DNA from: Promicromonospora thailandica
Lineage (GTDB): Bacteria > Actinomycetota > Actinomycetes > Actinomycetales > Cellulomonadaceae
Length of the DNA stretch: 64,000 bases
Reading direction: 5' to 3'
NCBI RefSeq assembly: GCF_024171955.1
Contig: NZ_JAMTCS010000014.1
Span: forward strand, 62,001-126,000
In this document: one piece after another, positions 1 to 46,652 of the stretch
How positions within the stretch are numbered: the first letter of the stretch is position 1
How the letters are laid out: the number at the start of each line of letters is the position of its first letter
Notes under the pieces: model-generated
The model's database searches: none
What the model was told of the DNA's origin: nothing
The model's input: only the letters and a program-made list of their open reading frames with translations
Translations under genes and position numbers: made by a program

Positions 1-28
1 GTCAGTCATGCGGGCTATGTTGTCAGGC

Positions 29-2746
29 GTGACCTCCACAGCGCCAAGCCACATCCAGGGAACGCCCGCGACGGGCCGCCCCCGCCTCCTGCTGATCGAC
101 GGCCATTCGATGGCCTACCGGGCGTTCTACGCGCTGCCCGACACCCTCGCGACCAGCTCCGGGCAGATCACGAACGCCGTCTACGGGTTCACGTCGATGC
201 TGACGAACCTGCTGCGCGACGAGCAGCCGACGCACCTGGGCGTCGCGTTCGACGCGGGCCGCGTGACCTTCCGCACCGAGCGGTTCCCCGAGTACAAGGG
301 CACGCGGGACGCCACGCCGGACGCGTTCAAGGGGCAGGTGCCCCTCATCAAGGAGGTGCTGGACGCGCTGCGGGTGCCGTTCGTCCAGCTCGAGGGCATC
401 GAGGCTGACGACATCCTGGCCACGCTCGCCACCCAGGCCCGGGCGGCGGGCATGGAGGTGCTCATCTGCTCCGGCGACCGGGACGCCCTGCAGCTCGTCA
501 ACGGCGACGTGACGGTCCTGTACCCGAAGAAGGGCGTCTCCGAGCTCTCCCGCATGGACCCCGAGGCCGTCGAGACCAAGTACGGCGTACCGCCCGAGCG
601 CTACCCCGACCTCGCGGCACTCGTCGGCGAGACCAGCGACAACCTGCCGGGCGTGCCCGGCGTCGGACCGAAGACCGCCGCGAAGTGGATCACCGCGCAC
701 GGCGGCCTCGCCGCCCTGCTCGACGCGGCCGACCAGGTCAAGGGCAAGGCGGGCGAGAACCTGCGCGCGCACCTCGACCAGGTGCGCGTCAACCGGGAGC
801 TCAACGCGCTCCTGACCGACGTCGAGCTGCCGCTCGGCGTCGGCGACCTCGCGCTGGCCGGCTTCGACCGTGAGGCCGTGCACCTCGTGTCCGACACCCT
901 GCAGTTCGGTCAGCTCCGCGACCGGCTCCTCGCCGTCGACCCCGCGGGCGCGAGCGCGCAGGAGGCCCCGGCCGGCGTCGCCGTCGAGCTCGACCTGGCC
1001 GACGTCGCCCCCGGGACCCTCGGCTCCTGGCTCGCCGCCCGCACCGCCCAGGTGGGCGTCGAGGTGGCCGGCAAGTCGGTGCCCGGCGGCGGCGACGCCT
1101 GGGCGGTGGCCGTGGCCGAACCCGGCGGCGAGGCCGCCTACGTCGACCTCACACAGGTGGGCCCCGACGACGAGAAGGCGCTCGCGGACTGGCTCGCCGA
1201 CGGAGCCGCGGCCAAGACGCTGCACGGCGCGAAGGCCGCCTCCCACATGCTGGCGGCCCGCGGCATGGAGCTGGCGGGCGTCGCGTTCGACACCGAGCTC
1301 GCCGCCTACCTGTGCTACCCGGACCAGCGCGGCTACGACCTGGGCGACCTGGCCGTGCGGCACATCGGGCGGGAGCTCAAGGTCGCCGAGCCGGACGGGG
1401 CGCAGGGCGCGCTCGACCTCTCGCTGGAGGGCGAGGCCGAGGGGCAGGCCGAGGCCGTGCGCGCGCAGGGCGTCGCCGAGCTCGCCGCCGCGCTGTCGGG
1501 CGAGCTGGCCGACCGCGACGCCACGGGCCTGCTGACCGACGTCGAGCTGCCGCTCTCGGGTGTGCTGGCGCGCATGGAGCGCACCGGCATCGCCGCCGAC
1601 ACCGAGTACCTGACCGGCCTGGAGAAGCAGTTCGCGCAGGGTGTGGCCGACGCCGCCGCGCAGGCCTACGACGTGATCGGGCGGGAGGTGAACCTGGGCA
1701 GCCCCAAGCAGCTCCAGGAGGTGCTGTTCGACCAGCTCGGCATGCCGAAGACCAAGAAGATCAAGACGGGTTACACCACCGACGCGGCCAGCCTGCAGGA
1801 CCTCTTCGTCAAGACGGAGCACCCGTTCCTGGCGCACCTGCTGGCGCACCGCGACGTGTCGCGGCTGCGCACCACCGTCGAGGGGCTGCTCCGGTCGGTG
1901 GCGCCCGACGGGCGGATCCACACCACGTTCCAGCAGACCATCGCCGCGACCGGCCGCCTGAGCTCGACCGACCCGAACCTGCAGAACATCCCGATCCGCA
2001 CGGAGGCGGGCCGCCAGATCCGCCGGGCGTTCCGCGTGGGCGAGGGTTACGAGTCGCTGCTGACCGCCGACTACAGCCAGATCGAGATGCGGATCATGGC
2101 GCACCTGTCGGGCGACGAGGGCCTGATCGCGGCGTTCGTCTCGGGCGAGGACCTGCACCGCTACGTGGGCTCGCGCGTGTTCGAGGTGGCGCCTGCCGAC
2201 GTGACGGCGGAGATGCGCTCCAAGATCAAGGCCATGTCGTACGGCCTGGCCTACGGCCTGAGCGCCTTCGGCCTGTCGCAGCAGCTCAACATCGCCACCA
2301 GCGAGGCGCAGGCCCTGATGGACGAGTACTTCGAGCGCTTCGGCGGGGTGCGTGACTACCTCGCGGGCGTCGTCGAGGAGGCGCGCGCCACGGGGTACAC
2401 CGCGACCATCCTGGGCCGCCGCCGCTATCTGCCCGACCTGACGAGCGACAACCGGCAGCGCCGGCAGATGGCCGAGCGCATGGCCCTCAACGCGCCCATC
2501 CAGGGCAGCGCGGCCGACATCATCAAGCTCGCCATGCTCCGGGTGCAGAAGGCCATCGACGAGCGCGGCCTGCGCTCGCGGCTGCTGCTCCAGGTGCACG
2601 ACGAGCTCGTGGTCGAGGTGGCGCCGGGGGAGCGGGACGCGGCCGAGGAGGTGCTGCGCACCGAGATGGGCGCGGCCTTCGCGCTGACGGTCCCGCTGGA
2701 CGTCTCGGTCGGCACGGGCCCCACCTGGCACGAGGCGGGCCACTGA
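29..2746 (+). CDS. polA: DNA polymerase I
   Basis: Fills gaps in excision repair and removes RNA primers. From the proposed GTG at 29 the protein is about 905 aa. An N-terminal 5'-3' exonuclease/FEN domain (about 15-300) starts with LLLIDGHSMAYRAFYALP. The middle 3'-5' exonuclease domain (about 310-510) lacks the DEDD acidic residues, so proofreading is probably absent, as in other actinobacterial PolA. The polymerase domain carries motif A DYSQIE (D681), the O-helix KAMSYGLAYG with Tyr738 where E. coli has Phe762, and motif C VHDE (D858). In-frame ATGs at 8 and 17 also exist. I prefer GTG 29 because TATGTT at 16-21 sits 7 nt upstream as a -10 box for a leaderless message. The window begins just upstream, so the promoter is only partly visible. 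Confidence 0.97.
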   Translation: MTSTAPSHIQGTPATGRPRLLLIDGHSMAYRAFYALPDTLATSSGQITNAVYGFTSMLTNLLRDEQPTHLGVAFDAGRVTFRTERFPEYKGTRDATPDAFKGQVPLIKEVLDALRVPFVQLEGIEADDILATLATQARAAGMEVLICSGDRDALQLVNGDVTVLYPKKGVSELSRMDPEAVETKYGVPPERYPDLAALVGETSDNLPGVPGVGPKTAAKWITAHGGLAALLDAADQVKGKAGENLRAHLDQVRVNRELNALLTDVELPLGVGDLALAGFDREAVHLVSDTLQFGQLRDRLLAVDPAGASAQEAPAGVAVELDLADVAPGTLGSWLAARTAQVGVEVAGKSVPGGGDAWAVAVAEPGGEAAYVDLTQVGPDDEKALADWLADGAAAKTLHGAKAASHMLAARGMELAGVAFDTELAAYLCYPDQRGYDLGDLAVRHIGRELKVAEPDGAQGALDLSLEGEAEGQAEAVRAQGVAELAAALSGELADRDATGLLTDVELPLSGVLARMERTGIAADTEYLTGLEKQFAQGVADAAAQAYDVIGREVNLGSPKQLQEVLFDQLGMPKTKKIKTGYTTDAASLQDLFVKTEHPFLAHLLAHRDVSRLRTTVEGLLRSVAPDGRIHTTFQQTIAATGRLSSTDPNLQNIPIRTEAGRQIRRAFRVGEGYESLLTADYSQIEMRIMAHLSGDEGLIAAFVSGEDLHRYVGSRVFEVAPADVTAEMRSKIKAMSYGLAYGLSAFGLSQQLNIATSEAQALMDEYFERFGGVRDYLAGVVEEARATGYTATILGRRRYLPDLTSDNRQRRQMAERMALNAPIQGSAADIIKLAMLRVQKAIDERGLRSRLLLQVHDELVVEVAPGERDAAEEVLRTEMGAAFALTVPLDVSVGTGPTWHEAGH

Positions 2747-2792: not shown

Positions 2793-3007
2793 CCGAGATC
2801 TGGTGCTCCGCTGCCGAGATCTGGCGTCCCCGCCGAGATCTGGCAGTGCACCACCAGATCTCGGCGGGGACACCAGATCTCGGCGGCGGAGCACCAGATC
2901 TCAGGGGGCGGTCCCCGGCGGGAGGCCAGATCTCACGGCGGGGTCGCGTGGGGCGGCCAGATGTCGGGGGAGAGGCTCTTCAGGTCTCGCCGGGACACCA
3001 GATGTCA
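2793..3007. repeat. Cluster 1 of AGATCT-centred repeats (polA / DUF559 gene junction)
   Basis: An 11-bp unit CCGAGATCTGG lies in one orientation at 2793, 2814 and 2833, then in the opposite orientation (CCAGATCTCGG) at 2854 and 2873. Decaying variants follow at 2894, 2926, 2957 and 2998. The central pair forms an 18-bp perfect inverted repeat (2826-2843 and 2854-2871; left arm GTCCCCGCCGAGATCTGG) around a 10-nt loop. The last variant contains the stop codon of the minus-strand DUF559 gene. The cluster lies between convergent genes, so it may act as a bidirectional terminator, but one hairpin would suffice for that. A similar cluster lies on the other side of the DUF559 gene. Confidence 0.9.
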
Positions 3008-3940
3008 CGGCTCCGGAAGGTCCAGCCGAGGGTCCAGCCGCGGACGTTGGTGCGCCGGCGTCTCGCGGAGCACCCAGCGCACGATGTCCGACGCCTTGTC
3101 GCGCGCGGTGACCCGGACCAGCGCTCGCCCGGTCGCGCGGATCGCGTCGTCCCTGCGCTTCTCCACGAACCGCGCGGCGTCCGCGTCGTACCCGGGCCGC
3201 AACACCCCGTCCTGATACTTGACGAAGCCGTCGAACTCGATCAGCGGTCCCCATCCGTCCCAGCCGACATCGCAGTGGAAGGTCCCGAGCCGCGTCACGA
3301 CCGGCACCTGGGTCCGCGGCCGCGGGAAACCGGCGCGGAGCAGCACGTAGCGGGTGCGGGTCTCCCACGGAGACTGGGCGCCGCCGTCGGCCAGGTCCAG
3401 GACGAGCCGGGCCTGGCGTCGGTTCCTGCGGTCGCTGCGGTCGGCCAGCGCCGCGAGAAGACCGGCCCGCTCGACGCCGGTGCCGAGCGCCCAGTCGGCG
3501 AGAACCAGGCCGGCGAGCGGCGGCATCGTGCAGACGCAGTCGAGCACGGTCCGTGTCACCGAGGTCACGGGTACGCCGGCGACGGTGACGATCTCGTCGT
3601 CGGCCAGGATGCTCCGGTGGCGCACGATGTCCGGGGCGGAACCGGCATTGGACCCGTAGCGCTGGATCAGGTGCACCCGGCTGGGCATCTCCCACACGGG
3701 TGCGCCGTGGAGCAGCGCCGCGCTCTCGTGACTGACCACGTGGTGCGCGGTGAGCTGCCGGTGCACGGCGACGACCGTCTGCTCGGCCCGACGTCGGGCA
3801 TGCTCTGCGGCGCCGATCGGAGCCGCAGCCGGGTCGACGGCGGTGTAGGCGCCCCGCCGCAGGCGCTCGATGTCACGCGCGGCGAGGGCTCGGCGCAGAA
3901 CCGCGTAGTCGTGGTCGCGGGCCAGCAGGATCTCGGACAT
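3005..3940 (-). CDS. AbiEi-like N-terminal / DUF559 (endonuclease-fold) protein
   Basis: About 311 aa. The N-terminal part has the short winged-helix look of AbiEi-type antitoxin domains (RDIERLRRGAYTAV). The C-terminal third matches DUF559, a family with a Vsr/PD-(D/E)xK-like fold: SPWETRTRYVLLRAGFPRP, then GTFHCDVGWDG, then LIEFDGFVKY, which supplies the E...D...ExD acidic pattern. Such proteins are common and scattered in actinobacterial genomes; their biochemical role is not established, and no cognate toxin gene is adjacent. ATG 3940 has CACGCT 6 nt upstream; a GTG at 3982 with CAGGCT 6 nt upstream would add 14 residues. The stop codon lies inside an AGATCT-type repeat variant. Function is family-level only. 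Confidence 0.8.
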   Translation of the reverse strand: MSEILLARDHDYAVLRRALAARDIERLRRGAYTAVDPAAAPIGAAEHARRRAEQTVVAVHRQLTAHHVVSHESAALLHGAPVWEMPSRVHLIQRYGSNAGSAPDIVRHRSILADDEIVTVAGVPVTSVTRTVLDCVCTMPPLAGLVLADWALGTGVERAGLLAALADRSDRRNRRQARLVLDLADGGAQSPWETRTRYVLLRAGFPRPRTQVPVVTRLGTFHCDVGWDGWGPLIEFDGFVKYQDGVLRPGYDADAARFVEKRRDDAIRATGRALVRVTARDKASDIVRWVLRETPAHQRPRLDPRLDLPEP

Positions 3941-4343
3941 GCGGTCAGCGTGCCGGAACGCCGCCGCGGCCGCCGGACGCACCGAGGCAGCCTGTGCACA
4001 ACCTTCGATCCGGCCGCCCTGTGGTCACACTCCACCGCCTCCTCCGAGATCTAGGGTCTCGCCTGCGGTCGGCGGTGTCCCCCCGGCGAGATCTGTCACC
4101 TGCCACGCTCGTCCGCTGACATCTGGAGCTTCGCCGGTCGCCAGCCGAGCTTCCTCCGCCGAGATCTGGCAGACCGCCATCGAGATCTGGTGGCCGAGCT
4201 GAGATCTGGCAGTGCACTGCCAGATCTCAGCGCGAGCACCAGATCTCGGCGGCGCGGCACCAGATCTCGGCCGCGCGGTCAGCGGCGCGGCACCAGAGGC
4301 CGGCACCCGCGGCGAGGGACCAGATCTCAGTACTCCCGCCGGG
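3941..4343. repeat. Cluster 2 of AGATCT-centred repeats with a 34-bp perfect palindrome
   Basis: This gene-free stretch holds units at 4044 (CCGAGATCTAG), 4086 (variant), 4116 (variant), 4159, 4180 and 4199 in one orientation, then at 4220, 4239, 4260 and 4320 in the other. The orientation switch is a perfect palindrome at 4198-4231 with half-site GCTGAGATCTGGCAGTG. The same GGCAGTGCAC core sits at the switch point in cluster 1 (2842-2851). The cluster fills the space between the 5' end of the DUF559 gene and the 3' end of the methyltransferase gene, which are co-directional, so a convergent-terminator role does not explain it. Confidence 0.9.
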
Positions 4344-5162
4344 TCACGGGCGGGTCGTGACGAAGACCGCCGTGCCCGGGAGGTACCGGCCCCGCTCCGG
4401 GCCCCAGCCGCCCCACACCTGGGTGTTCCACTCGGGCCACTCCGGCTCCACCAGGTCGGTCAGCACCAGCCCCGCGGCCACGACGTCGCGCACGTGGTCC
4501 CCGACCGTGCGGTGGTACTCCGCGTACAGGACGCGGTCGGCGGCGTCGGTCTCGACGTAGGGCCGCCGGTCGAAGTACGACCGGTTGGCCGTCAGGCCGC
4601 GCGACGTCGGGTCGTCCGGGAAGGCCCACCGCAGCGGGTGGGTCACGGAGAACACCCACCGGCCGCCCGGCCGCAGCACCCGGGCGGCCTCGCGGTGCAC
4701 CCGGACGGCGTCGGGCACGAACGGCAGCGCGCCGAACGACGTGAAGACCACGTCGAACGAGCCGTCCGCGAACGGCAGGGCCCGCGCGTCCGCCTGGAGC
4801 CGCGGCACCACGACACCCGTGGCCGCGTCCAGGGTCGCGGCGCCCGCCAGCATGCCCGCCGAGTAGTCGGTGGCGACGGCCCGCGCCCCCTGGCCGGCCA
4901 GCCACCGCGAGCAGTGCGCCGCGCCCGCGCCGACCTCGAGCACGTCCCGCCCGGCGACGTCGCCCAGGAGCCCGGCCTCGGCCTCGGTCAACCCCTCCGG
5001 CCCCCAGCGGAACCCGGCGTCGCCGAGGAAGTCGCGGTGCTCGTCCAGGTACTCGTCCGCGTTGGCGTCCCACCAGCGCCGGGCCGCACGGCCGTCGTCG
5101 GGCACGTCGCGGTAACCGAAGGACACGGGTTCGGGATCGCCCACGGAGCCGGAGTCGTTCAC
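4344..5162 (-). CDS. Class I SAM-dependent methyltransferase
   Basis: About 272 aa with the Methyltransf_11 layout: motif I DVLEVGAGAAHCSRWLA, then the acidic end of beta 2 (ATDYSAGML), motif II around FDVVFTSFGALPFV, and post-motif LRPGGRWVFSVTHPLRWAF. The substrate cannot be told from sequence; relatives act on small molecules. I chose GTG 5162 because the minus strand carries GATGAT followed by exactly 6 nt before it, the leaderless pattern seen throughout this window. An in-frame ATG at 5189 is the alternative. The gene is divergent from the oligopeptide importer and its 3' end abuts repeat cluster 2. Confidence 0.88.
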   Translation of the reverse strand: MNDSGSVGDPEPVSFGYRDVPDDGRAARRWWDANADEYLDEHRDFLGDAGFRWGPEGLTEAEAGLLGDVAGRDVLEVGAGAAHCSRWLAGQGARAVATDYSAGMLAGAATLDAATGVVVPRLQADARALPFADGSFDVVFTSFGALPFVPDAVRVHREAARVLRPGGRWVFSVTHPLRWAFPDDPTSRGLTANRSYFDRRPYVETDAADRVLYAEYHRTVGDHVRDVVAAGLVLTDLVEPEWPEWNTQVWGGWGPERGRYLPGTAVFVTTRP

Positions 5163-5378
5163 GGGGCCATCATCCCGCCCGGTACGCATCCGCACACACC
5201 CGGCGAAGCGGCCGTGAGATAGCACATACACGCCGGTAACAAAAGGATCACGATTGGATTGCGAGTACTGGGGAGAAATACGGAAGCAACGAAAGGGCTC
5301 CTAAGGTCAGGCGCAAACGTCTGCGCGCCGTCGTGCCCGAACCCGGGCCCGCCGGTGCGCTCGAGGAAGGAGAGTGCC

Positions 5379-45662: not shown

Positions 45663-45710
45663 ACGTGTCAGACGTACGGGCCGCCCGCGCGGCCCGTACG
45701 TCTGACACGT
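45663..45710 (+). terminator. 22-bp perfect hairpin after tpiA
   Basis: Arms 45663-45684 and 45689-45710 are perfect reverse complements around a 4-nt loop, starting 9 nt after the tpiA stop. No T-run follows, so it may need Rho or act as a stabiliser. Confidence 0.8.
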
Positions 45711-46524: not shown

Positions 46525-46537
46525 GAGTTTTCCCACC

Positions 46538-46652
46538 CTGGCGAAGTAGAACCCTGGCGAAGTAGAACTGGAGCGGGACGAACCTGATGGTTCGTCCCGC
46601 TCCAGTTCTACTTCGCCGGCGTTCTACTTCGCCAGCGTTCTACTTCGCCGGC
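46538..46652. repeat. 16-bp repeat array and 30-bp inverted repeat between rbpA and pgl
   Basis: GGCGAAGTAGAAC-type units appear twice in one direction (46538-46552, 46554-46568) and three times inverted (46605-46620, 46621-46636, 46637-46652; GTTCTACTTCGCCGGC). The arms 46554-46583 and 46590-46619 form a 30-bp stem (one G-T mismatch) with a 6-nt loop. The unit nearest pgl contains the pgl stop codon, so the array appears to be made of copies of the pgl 3' end. Probably a bidirectional terminator in function. Confidence 0.9.

Follow-up and report, generated by a model that had tools for sequence, protein, structure and literature searches.

A nuclease-like gene and its flanking four-box palindromes as a candidate two-part, REPIN/RAYT-like system in Promicromonospora

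In this work, we describe a Promicromonospora gene bracketed by two clusters of AGATCT repeats and conclude, with somewhat more confidence than doubt, that gene and repeat make up a two-part system in which an AbiEi-nuclease protein is paired with a four-box palindrome of ~68 bp, an arrangement that would have evolved independently of the REPIN/RAYT systems it resembles. We observed the architecture of the locus, the pairing of gene with palindrome type, their co-divergence, the dispersal of the palindromes, their presence or absence in relatives, the inversion of the gene in place, and the conservation of the nuclease residues. The initial annotation had raised the idea of a nuclease-fold gene paired with palindromes in a REP/RAYT-like manner through an unrelated enzyme, and this idea is supported by the flanking of 58 of 122 homologs, the co-divergence, the dispersal, and the lack of RAYT genes in all 13 genus genomes.

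The window analyzed is a stretch of 64,000 nucleotides from the source genome (G000; 5.38 Mb, 24 contigs, 99.8% complete). Within it, CCGAGATCTGG occurred 21 times at up to one mismatch, compared with a shuffle mean of 1.79, and 15 of these matches fell in 2793-2967 and 4044-4330. Both clusters are arrays inverted about a GTGCAC switch at their center; the orientation changes at GGCAGTGCAC (2842-2851 and 4208-4217), with inverted units beyond. Cluster 1 (2793..3007, unstranded) lies on the downstream side of the gene, in the gap to the convergent polA (DNA polymerase I, 8..2746, plus strand). It consists of three CCGAGATCTGG units, the switch at 2848/2849, and decaying inverted units; its arms (2795-2848 and 2849-2902) are 93% complementary, and its inverted core, GAGATCTGG-N10-CCAGATCTC, is at 2835..2862 (C14:64835-64862). 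The outer units of the clusters are decayed, and the last one of cluster 1, a decayed CCAGATGTCA (2998-3007), holds the stop codon of the gene (3005-3007). Cluster 2 (4044..4330, unstranded; switch at 4214/4215) lies on the upstream side, its arms (4158-4214 and 4215-4271) are 82% complementary, and its inverted core is a perfect palindrome (4201..4228, C14:66201-66228). It is flanked by two minus-strand genes, the second being a class I methyltransferase on the other side of the insertion point (4344..5231, minus strand; an inner start at 5162 is possible), and it ends at 4330, 13 bp past the methyltransferase stop (4344).

The initial annotation had described two AGATCT clusters with matching architecture, with units that decay outward and one that contains the stop codon of the gene, and the enrichment over shuffles, the shared switch, the inverted arms, and the position of CCAGATGTCA bear this out. 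It was also correct that cluster 2 separates co-directional genes, but its argument that terminators cannot explain the cluster fails because cluster 2 ends so close to the methyltransferase stop, and the clusters do hug 3′ ends. Elsewhere in the window, an inverted array of GGCGAAGTAGAAC units (46535-46649), with 50-nt arms that are 94% complementary and unlike AGATCT, may be another palindrome family, and a perfect 22-bp inverted repeat, ACGTGTCAGACG... (45663-45710), looks by eye like the polA-gap palindrome of two other genus genomes, G193 and G188.

Both AGATCT clusters are expanded copies of a ~68-bp four-box palindrome, which we call type A. Genome-wide, CNGAGATCTGG gave 165 matches against 0 for the reversed control, and inverted cores at up to two mismatches numbered 26 against 0; ten of the 12 isolated units examined fall within called genes. 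Among the 221 genomes of the family, Cellulomonadaceae, five carry the exact core, and these belong to a single genus; a search of named genomes for the core with a GC center returned 24 loci, all from Promicromonospora, from which the window's own records were possibly excluded. An alignment of 57 copies (26 from G000, 23 from P. citrea, 4 from AC04, 3 from G192, and 1 from MEB111) gave as its consensus a 68-bp palindrome, CGAGATCTGGTGTTCGCGnCGAGATCTGGTnGTGCACnACCAGATCTCGGCGCGAACACCAGATCTCG, each arm of which has two boxes at a distance of 19 bp, making four boxes in all. The boxes are near-invariant, and the spacers are variable yet tend toward arm-to-arm complementarity. Two-sided (compensatory) arm changes occupied 92 cells compared with 40.5 ± 6.2 after shuffling, a signal weakened by the fact that the number of stem pairs carrying such changes, 10, was matched in 38 of 500 shuffles. 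While copies in P. citrea, AC04, MEB111, and G192 are mostly the bare core, the arms in G000 are extended by extra units at 19, 21, 32, and 42 bp. Helical phasing of the outer units (spacings 19, 20, 21, 32, and 42) was considered and rejected, as the best resultant (0.67, at a period of 10.0 bp) comes mostly from the spacings 32 and 42, and arrays formed by nested insertion at the palindrome center were discarded because the outer spacings do not fit. In the alignment (A1), the variation in columns 1, 20, 30, and 33 and their partners, at the loop and box edge, is nearly always between C and T (G and A in the opposite arm), a pattern that would fit decay of CpG to TpG.

The gene itself (3005..3982, minus strand), called from its ORF and codon usage, encodes 325 aa; its start is uncertain, and an inner start at 3940 is possible. 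The protein is predicted to combine a DNA-binding domain of the AbiEi type with a nuclease domain resembling Vsr/EDxHD. Searching Pfam with the 325-aa protein alone returned no confident match. Among 21 homologs, the PADLOC AbiEi profiles matched all 21 at E<=1 (the protein's own best E is 1.3e-12) and Pfam AbiEi_4 matched 20, while the Pfam DUF559 profile (PF04480) matched none at the same cutoff. The AlphaFold model (mean pLDDT 84.5) resembles AbiEi (6y8q, Z 8.9), and its residues 204-313 resemble the catalytic domain of the I-Bth0305I homing endonuclease (3r3p, which we take to be a member of the EDxHD family; Z 9.5, rmsd 2.6 over 92 residues); the comparison also matched Vsr (1cw0, Z 7.8) and TnsA (5.8), and a fold's absence from its matches carries no weight. 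Pfam thus did not confirm the DUF559 label of the initial annotation; the structure comparison points to a nuclease-like fold of the Vsr kind. Residues E207, D238, E249, and K255 are each present in at least 121 of the 122 homologs. No AbiEii nucleotidyltransferase toxin gene lies beside the gene at this locus, where the neighbors are polA and the methyltransferase. Plasmid and phage collections queried with this one protein returned no relative, and none of the 28 pattern matches in a scan of viral contigs was one.

The source genome encodes four paralogs (E <=1.8e-4). No AGATCT clusters were found in the 13-kb stretches around them, yet the two closest paralogs are each bracketed on both sides by a palindrome of another type. 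Taken literally, the expectation that the clusters track the gene does not hold in this genome, where 24 of 26 type-A cores are distant from it and the paralogs are without AGATCT, but the two closest paralogs have palindrome types of their own; clusters away from the gene are not decisive because a RAYT-like system shows the same. At a pair-similarity threshold of 25, chosen after viewing the initial flank results, a matched palindrome pair was present at 58 of 122 homologs (19 of the 27 loci in the genus and 39 of the 95 from other genera), excluding the two cut loci L194 and L205, with which the count becomes 59/124. The genus loci are 27 of 33 matches, leaving out the two pieces of a frame-broken G185 gene, G000:C1, G190:C12, G191:C31, and G195:C1:501901. 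The sample from other genera is non-random: its 97 loci (95 after exclusions) comprise 18 retrieved loci and 79 chosen among the matches listed, strongest first with some passed over. Matched pairs were far rarer in the controls, with 1 of 246 other genes, drawn from G000 only (p about 6e-32), and 1 of 29 distant homologs, whose loci depend on a home-made gene caller trained on G000 (p about 3e-6); any palindrome on both sides was seen at 13 of the 246. The sole control gene with a matched pair (L047, 2496-3479) looks by eye like a WYL-type regulator, and its palindrome (GCTTCGAGACCGAGG...) is of another kind.

Palindromes flanking the same gene are alike, with a pair similarity of 47.7 within loci compared with 11.8 across them, and the best match of the left palindrome is its own right partner in 42 of 58 cases. 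Their median length is 66 bp, and their arms repeat themselves at a 19-bp lag: this lag scores 0.68, a value unchanged when type A is left out, and none of the other lags between 8 and 23 exceeds 0.34. No matched pair was detected at 64 of the 122 homologs, where the nuclease residues are equally conserved, so the nuclease has another role too or the palindromes are easily lost. On a tree of the 122 proteins, the flanked label changes 25 times compared with a shuffled mean of 41; flanking is thus clustered, yet often gained, lost, or missed.

Palindrome sequence follows the protein clade and not the genome. Similar palindromes were found in 40 of 42 pairs with at least 70% protein identity versus 13 of 1556 below 60%, and palindrome and protein show a modest rank correlation of 0.26 (0/1000 permutations). 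Within the genus, all 12 pairs of same-genome paralogs have dissimilar palindromes (scores 8-20), and nine such pairs outside it scored 10-28, with two above 25 (26 and 28). C-type and E-type genes occupy a common locus with differing palindromes, left and right still matching, and close orthologs mostly retain both locus and flanks.

Two or more of the palindrome types are scattered through genomes of the genus. B/C-like cores number 3-58 per genus genome, compared with 0-3 for the control. The TTCGGCAG core, the type of several genes from other genera, is present in 14 of 220 genomes, with nine copies each in G141 and G213; in G135, the two copies are the two flanks of the gene, and at least one of the 14 genomes, G220, has the core with no homolog at the search cutoff. 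Genomes with a type-A gene contain 21, 23, and 3 exact type-A cores, while those without it contain 3 (G192), 1 (G191), and eight zeros (p 0.003), a link that rests on few events because G000 and P. citrea, with 93% identity in polA, are closely related. The copy-number test for type B (p 0.011) is muddied because the search pattern also catches type C; G188 and G189 have 30 and 21 B/C-like cores, and the search detected no B- or C-type gene in either genome. In AC04, the type-A gene is intact, yet there are only 4 type-A copies; a broken gene was considered as the cause of this low number and rejected, as the in-frame TAG is just two residues before the end.

The initial annotation had asked for empty sites in relatives, and they were found. 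The unit of palindrome, gene, and palindrome lies between polA and the methyltransferase in G000, P. citrea, and AC04, and the gap is without it in 10 of 13 genus genomes, one of which (G195) has another small insert; here, at L126, a small ORF pair after polA looks to us like a DUF433/PIN-type toxin-antitoxin pair. In G192, an apparent half-unit remains in the gap by eye. Among gaps without the gene, different palindromes are visible by eye in G188/G193, G194, G185/G186, and G187 (L124-L134). The 23 cluster sites of G000 include three in common with the known element sites of P. citrea (both gene flanks and one other). We queried 19 of the remaining 20 in P. citrea, and where the flanking genes are neighbors there (14 sites), 13 are empty and 1 is occupied; at one of the 13, L052, the element is present in G192. 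The gene can also be turned around in place: type-B genes are flipped, with outer flanks matching on the opposite strand, in L100 versus L117/L118, L101 versus L110, and L107 versus L111. L219 is flipped relative to L235 in the same way, and L231 versus L235 shows mixed strands. In L101 (G192), the type-B palindrome is nested centrally in a 128-bp palindrome (2639-2766) with related outer ends.

From these observations, we infer three steps, namely binding, cutting, and copying. The AbiEi domain would bind the boxes of its own palindrome, the nuclease would nick or cut in or near it, and repair or strand transfer would copy palindromes elsewhere and maintain the likeness of the two flanking ones, a role comparable to that of RAYT for REPINs. 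By analogy, recognition of its own palindrome by the protein is quite probable, since AbiEi-type proteins bind sets of two or four inverted repeats (AbiEi and Rv2827c, in an excerpt of PMC7319586), which fits the four boxes per palindrome. Spread of the palindromes driven by the nuclease is plausible, and we would give it an even chance. The fullest version, an HUH-free, convergent counterpart of REPIN-RAYT in which domesticated AbiEi-nuclease fusions of this actinobacterial family each recognize and spread their own four-box palindrome by DNA cutting and repair, is a serious possibility that we place slightly below even; if true, each genome would hold several independent populations of replicating palindromes.

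The main alternative is a regulator and its regulon, in which the AbiEi domain represses its own gene through the upstream palindrome, the dispersed copies are operators, and the nuclease fold is a coincidence or serves to sense phage. The same excerpt of PMC7319586 describes AbiEi and Rv2827c binding two and four inverted repeats, respectively, at their own promoters, and in flanked loci a median of 146 bp separates the upstream palindrome from the boundary of the protein match. However, the 3′ side of the gene has a matching palindrome as well, at a median of 52 bp, the nuclease residues are near-invariant, and 13 of 14 comparable sites are empty in the near relative P. citrea. The placement of type-A copies also argues against operators: 26 lie in convergent, 27 in co-directional, and only 3 in divergent gaps, while 150 background gaps that lack a cluster and measure 100 bp or more, for which the window and L061 partly overlap, divide into 13, 80, and 57, respectively. 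One of the 57 copies has no gene on one side, leaving 56, and these are not fully independent because several occupy one gap. Altogether, we consider the regulator unlikely.

The same placement gives some credit to passive 3′-end hairpins, that is, bidirectional terminators or stabilizers of mRNA 3′ ends that spread by unknown means, with the gene as a bystander. Type-A copies are mainly intergenic (one G000 cluster, L055, lies within a called ORF) and hug stop codons and convergent gaps, with a median distance from core to 3′ end of 10 bp in AC04, MEB111, and G192 pooled, 44 bp in P. citrea, and 106 bp in G000; six copies fold as very stable hairpins (z -8.5 to -14.1), and the same polA gap holds different palindromes in several other species. 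Yet passive hairpins leave unexplained why one gene family is flanked at 58 of 122 loci against 1 of 246, and likewise the co-divergence with the protein, so a reading as terminators only is insufficient. Among 27 co-directional copies, no T-run was seen by eye in the 30 bases past the element, and the sense strand showed no RNA-strand bias (G-U 54 versus A-C 57), which leaves selection at the RNA level unsupported. We therefore regard this explanation as improbable. Equally hard to sustain is a defense or toxin-antitoxin cassette with palindromes as recombination ends for flip or exchange and dispersed copies as scars of past cassettes, which would fit the in-place inversions, the AbiEi matches in a defense library (PADLOC), and the 10 of 13 genomes whose polA locus is without the whole unit, but not the solo copies, up to tens per genome and far outnumbering cassettes, nor orthologs that mostly keep their locus, nor the lack of a toxin gene adjoining this gene and of relatives on the plasmids, phages, or viral contigs searched.

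Our preferred reading, a protein paired with its own palindrome, has its nearest analogue in the REPIN-RAYT systems, also termed REPtrons (excerpts of PMC3116915, PMC8049555, and PMC8266576), which in excerpts of the first two consist of a single-copy gene with its own repeat type beside it, mostly vertical in inheritance and not on plasmids. As far as those excerpts go, the likeness is close: a chromosomal gene lies beside its own palindrome type, an inverted doublet, with dispersed extragenic copies, and a genome holds several types, each paired with a single-copy gene of its own, mostly vertical and not on plasmids. The differences are that the enzyme here is an AbiEi domain with a Vsr-like nuclease, where RAYT is a Y1 HUH protein, that the palindromes here, found in one actinobacterial family, measure ~66 bp and have four boxes spaced by 19 bp, and that copying would be an inferred step here. 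RAYT itself (PF01797) was found in 0 of 13 genus genomes by a search that was positive in 5 of 14 control genomes. A GTAG-type tag adjoins REPIN palindromes in an excerpt of PMC3733652, and the consensus of type A, the one type examined, has no conserved GTAG. The system is not a REPIN-RAYT member because the defining enzyme is missing, although it would work like one, and we rate it as categorically new because no part of it is homologous to the parts of this nearest analogue. Among the matches listed in open-access literature, titles and the beginnings of abstracts held no description of this pairing of gene and palindrome.

Two other families share parts with the protein. With the AbiEi/COG5340 antitoxins, it shares the N-terminal domain by profile and predicted fold, and known members bind sets of inverted repeats (excerpt of PMC7319586); it differs from them in its nuclease-fold C-terminal half, in having no AbiEii toxin as neighbor, and in repeats that lie on both sides and are scattered. 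With Vsr and the EDxHD nucleases (I-Bth0305I 3r3p and Vsr 1cw0), it shows a likeness in the predicted fold of residues about 200-313, while here the nuclease domain is fused to AbiEi in a free-standing gene. As regards homing-type systems, empty polA-methyltransferase sites do exist among the genus genomes. REPINs are the known case of palindromes living with a domesticated transposase, and if the reading proposed here is true, a second, unrelated enzyme has arrived at the same arrangement, which would make gene-palindrome partnerships a general outcome. It would also provide dozens of ready-made pairs of protein and DNA specificity, with clade-specific palindromes at a constant 19-bp spacing, and would account for some of the palindromes that have so far had no explanation at the gene ends of these GC-rich bacteria.
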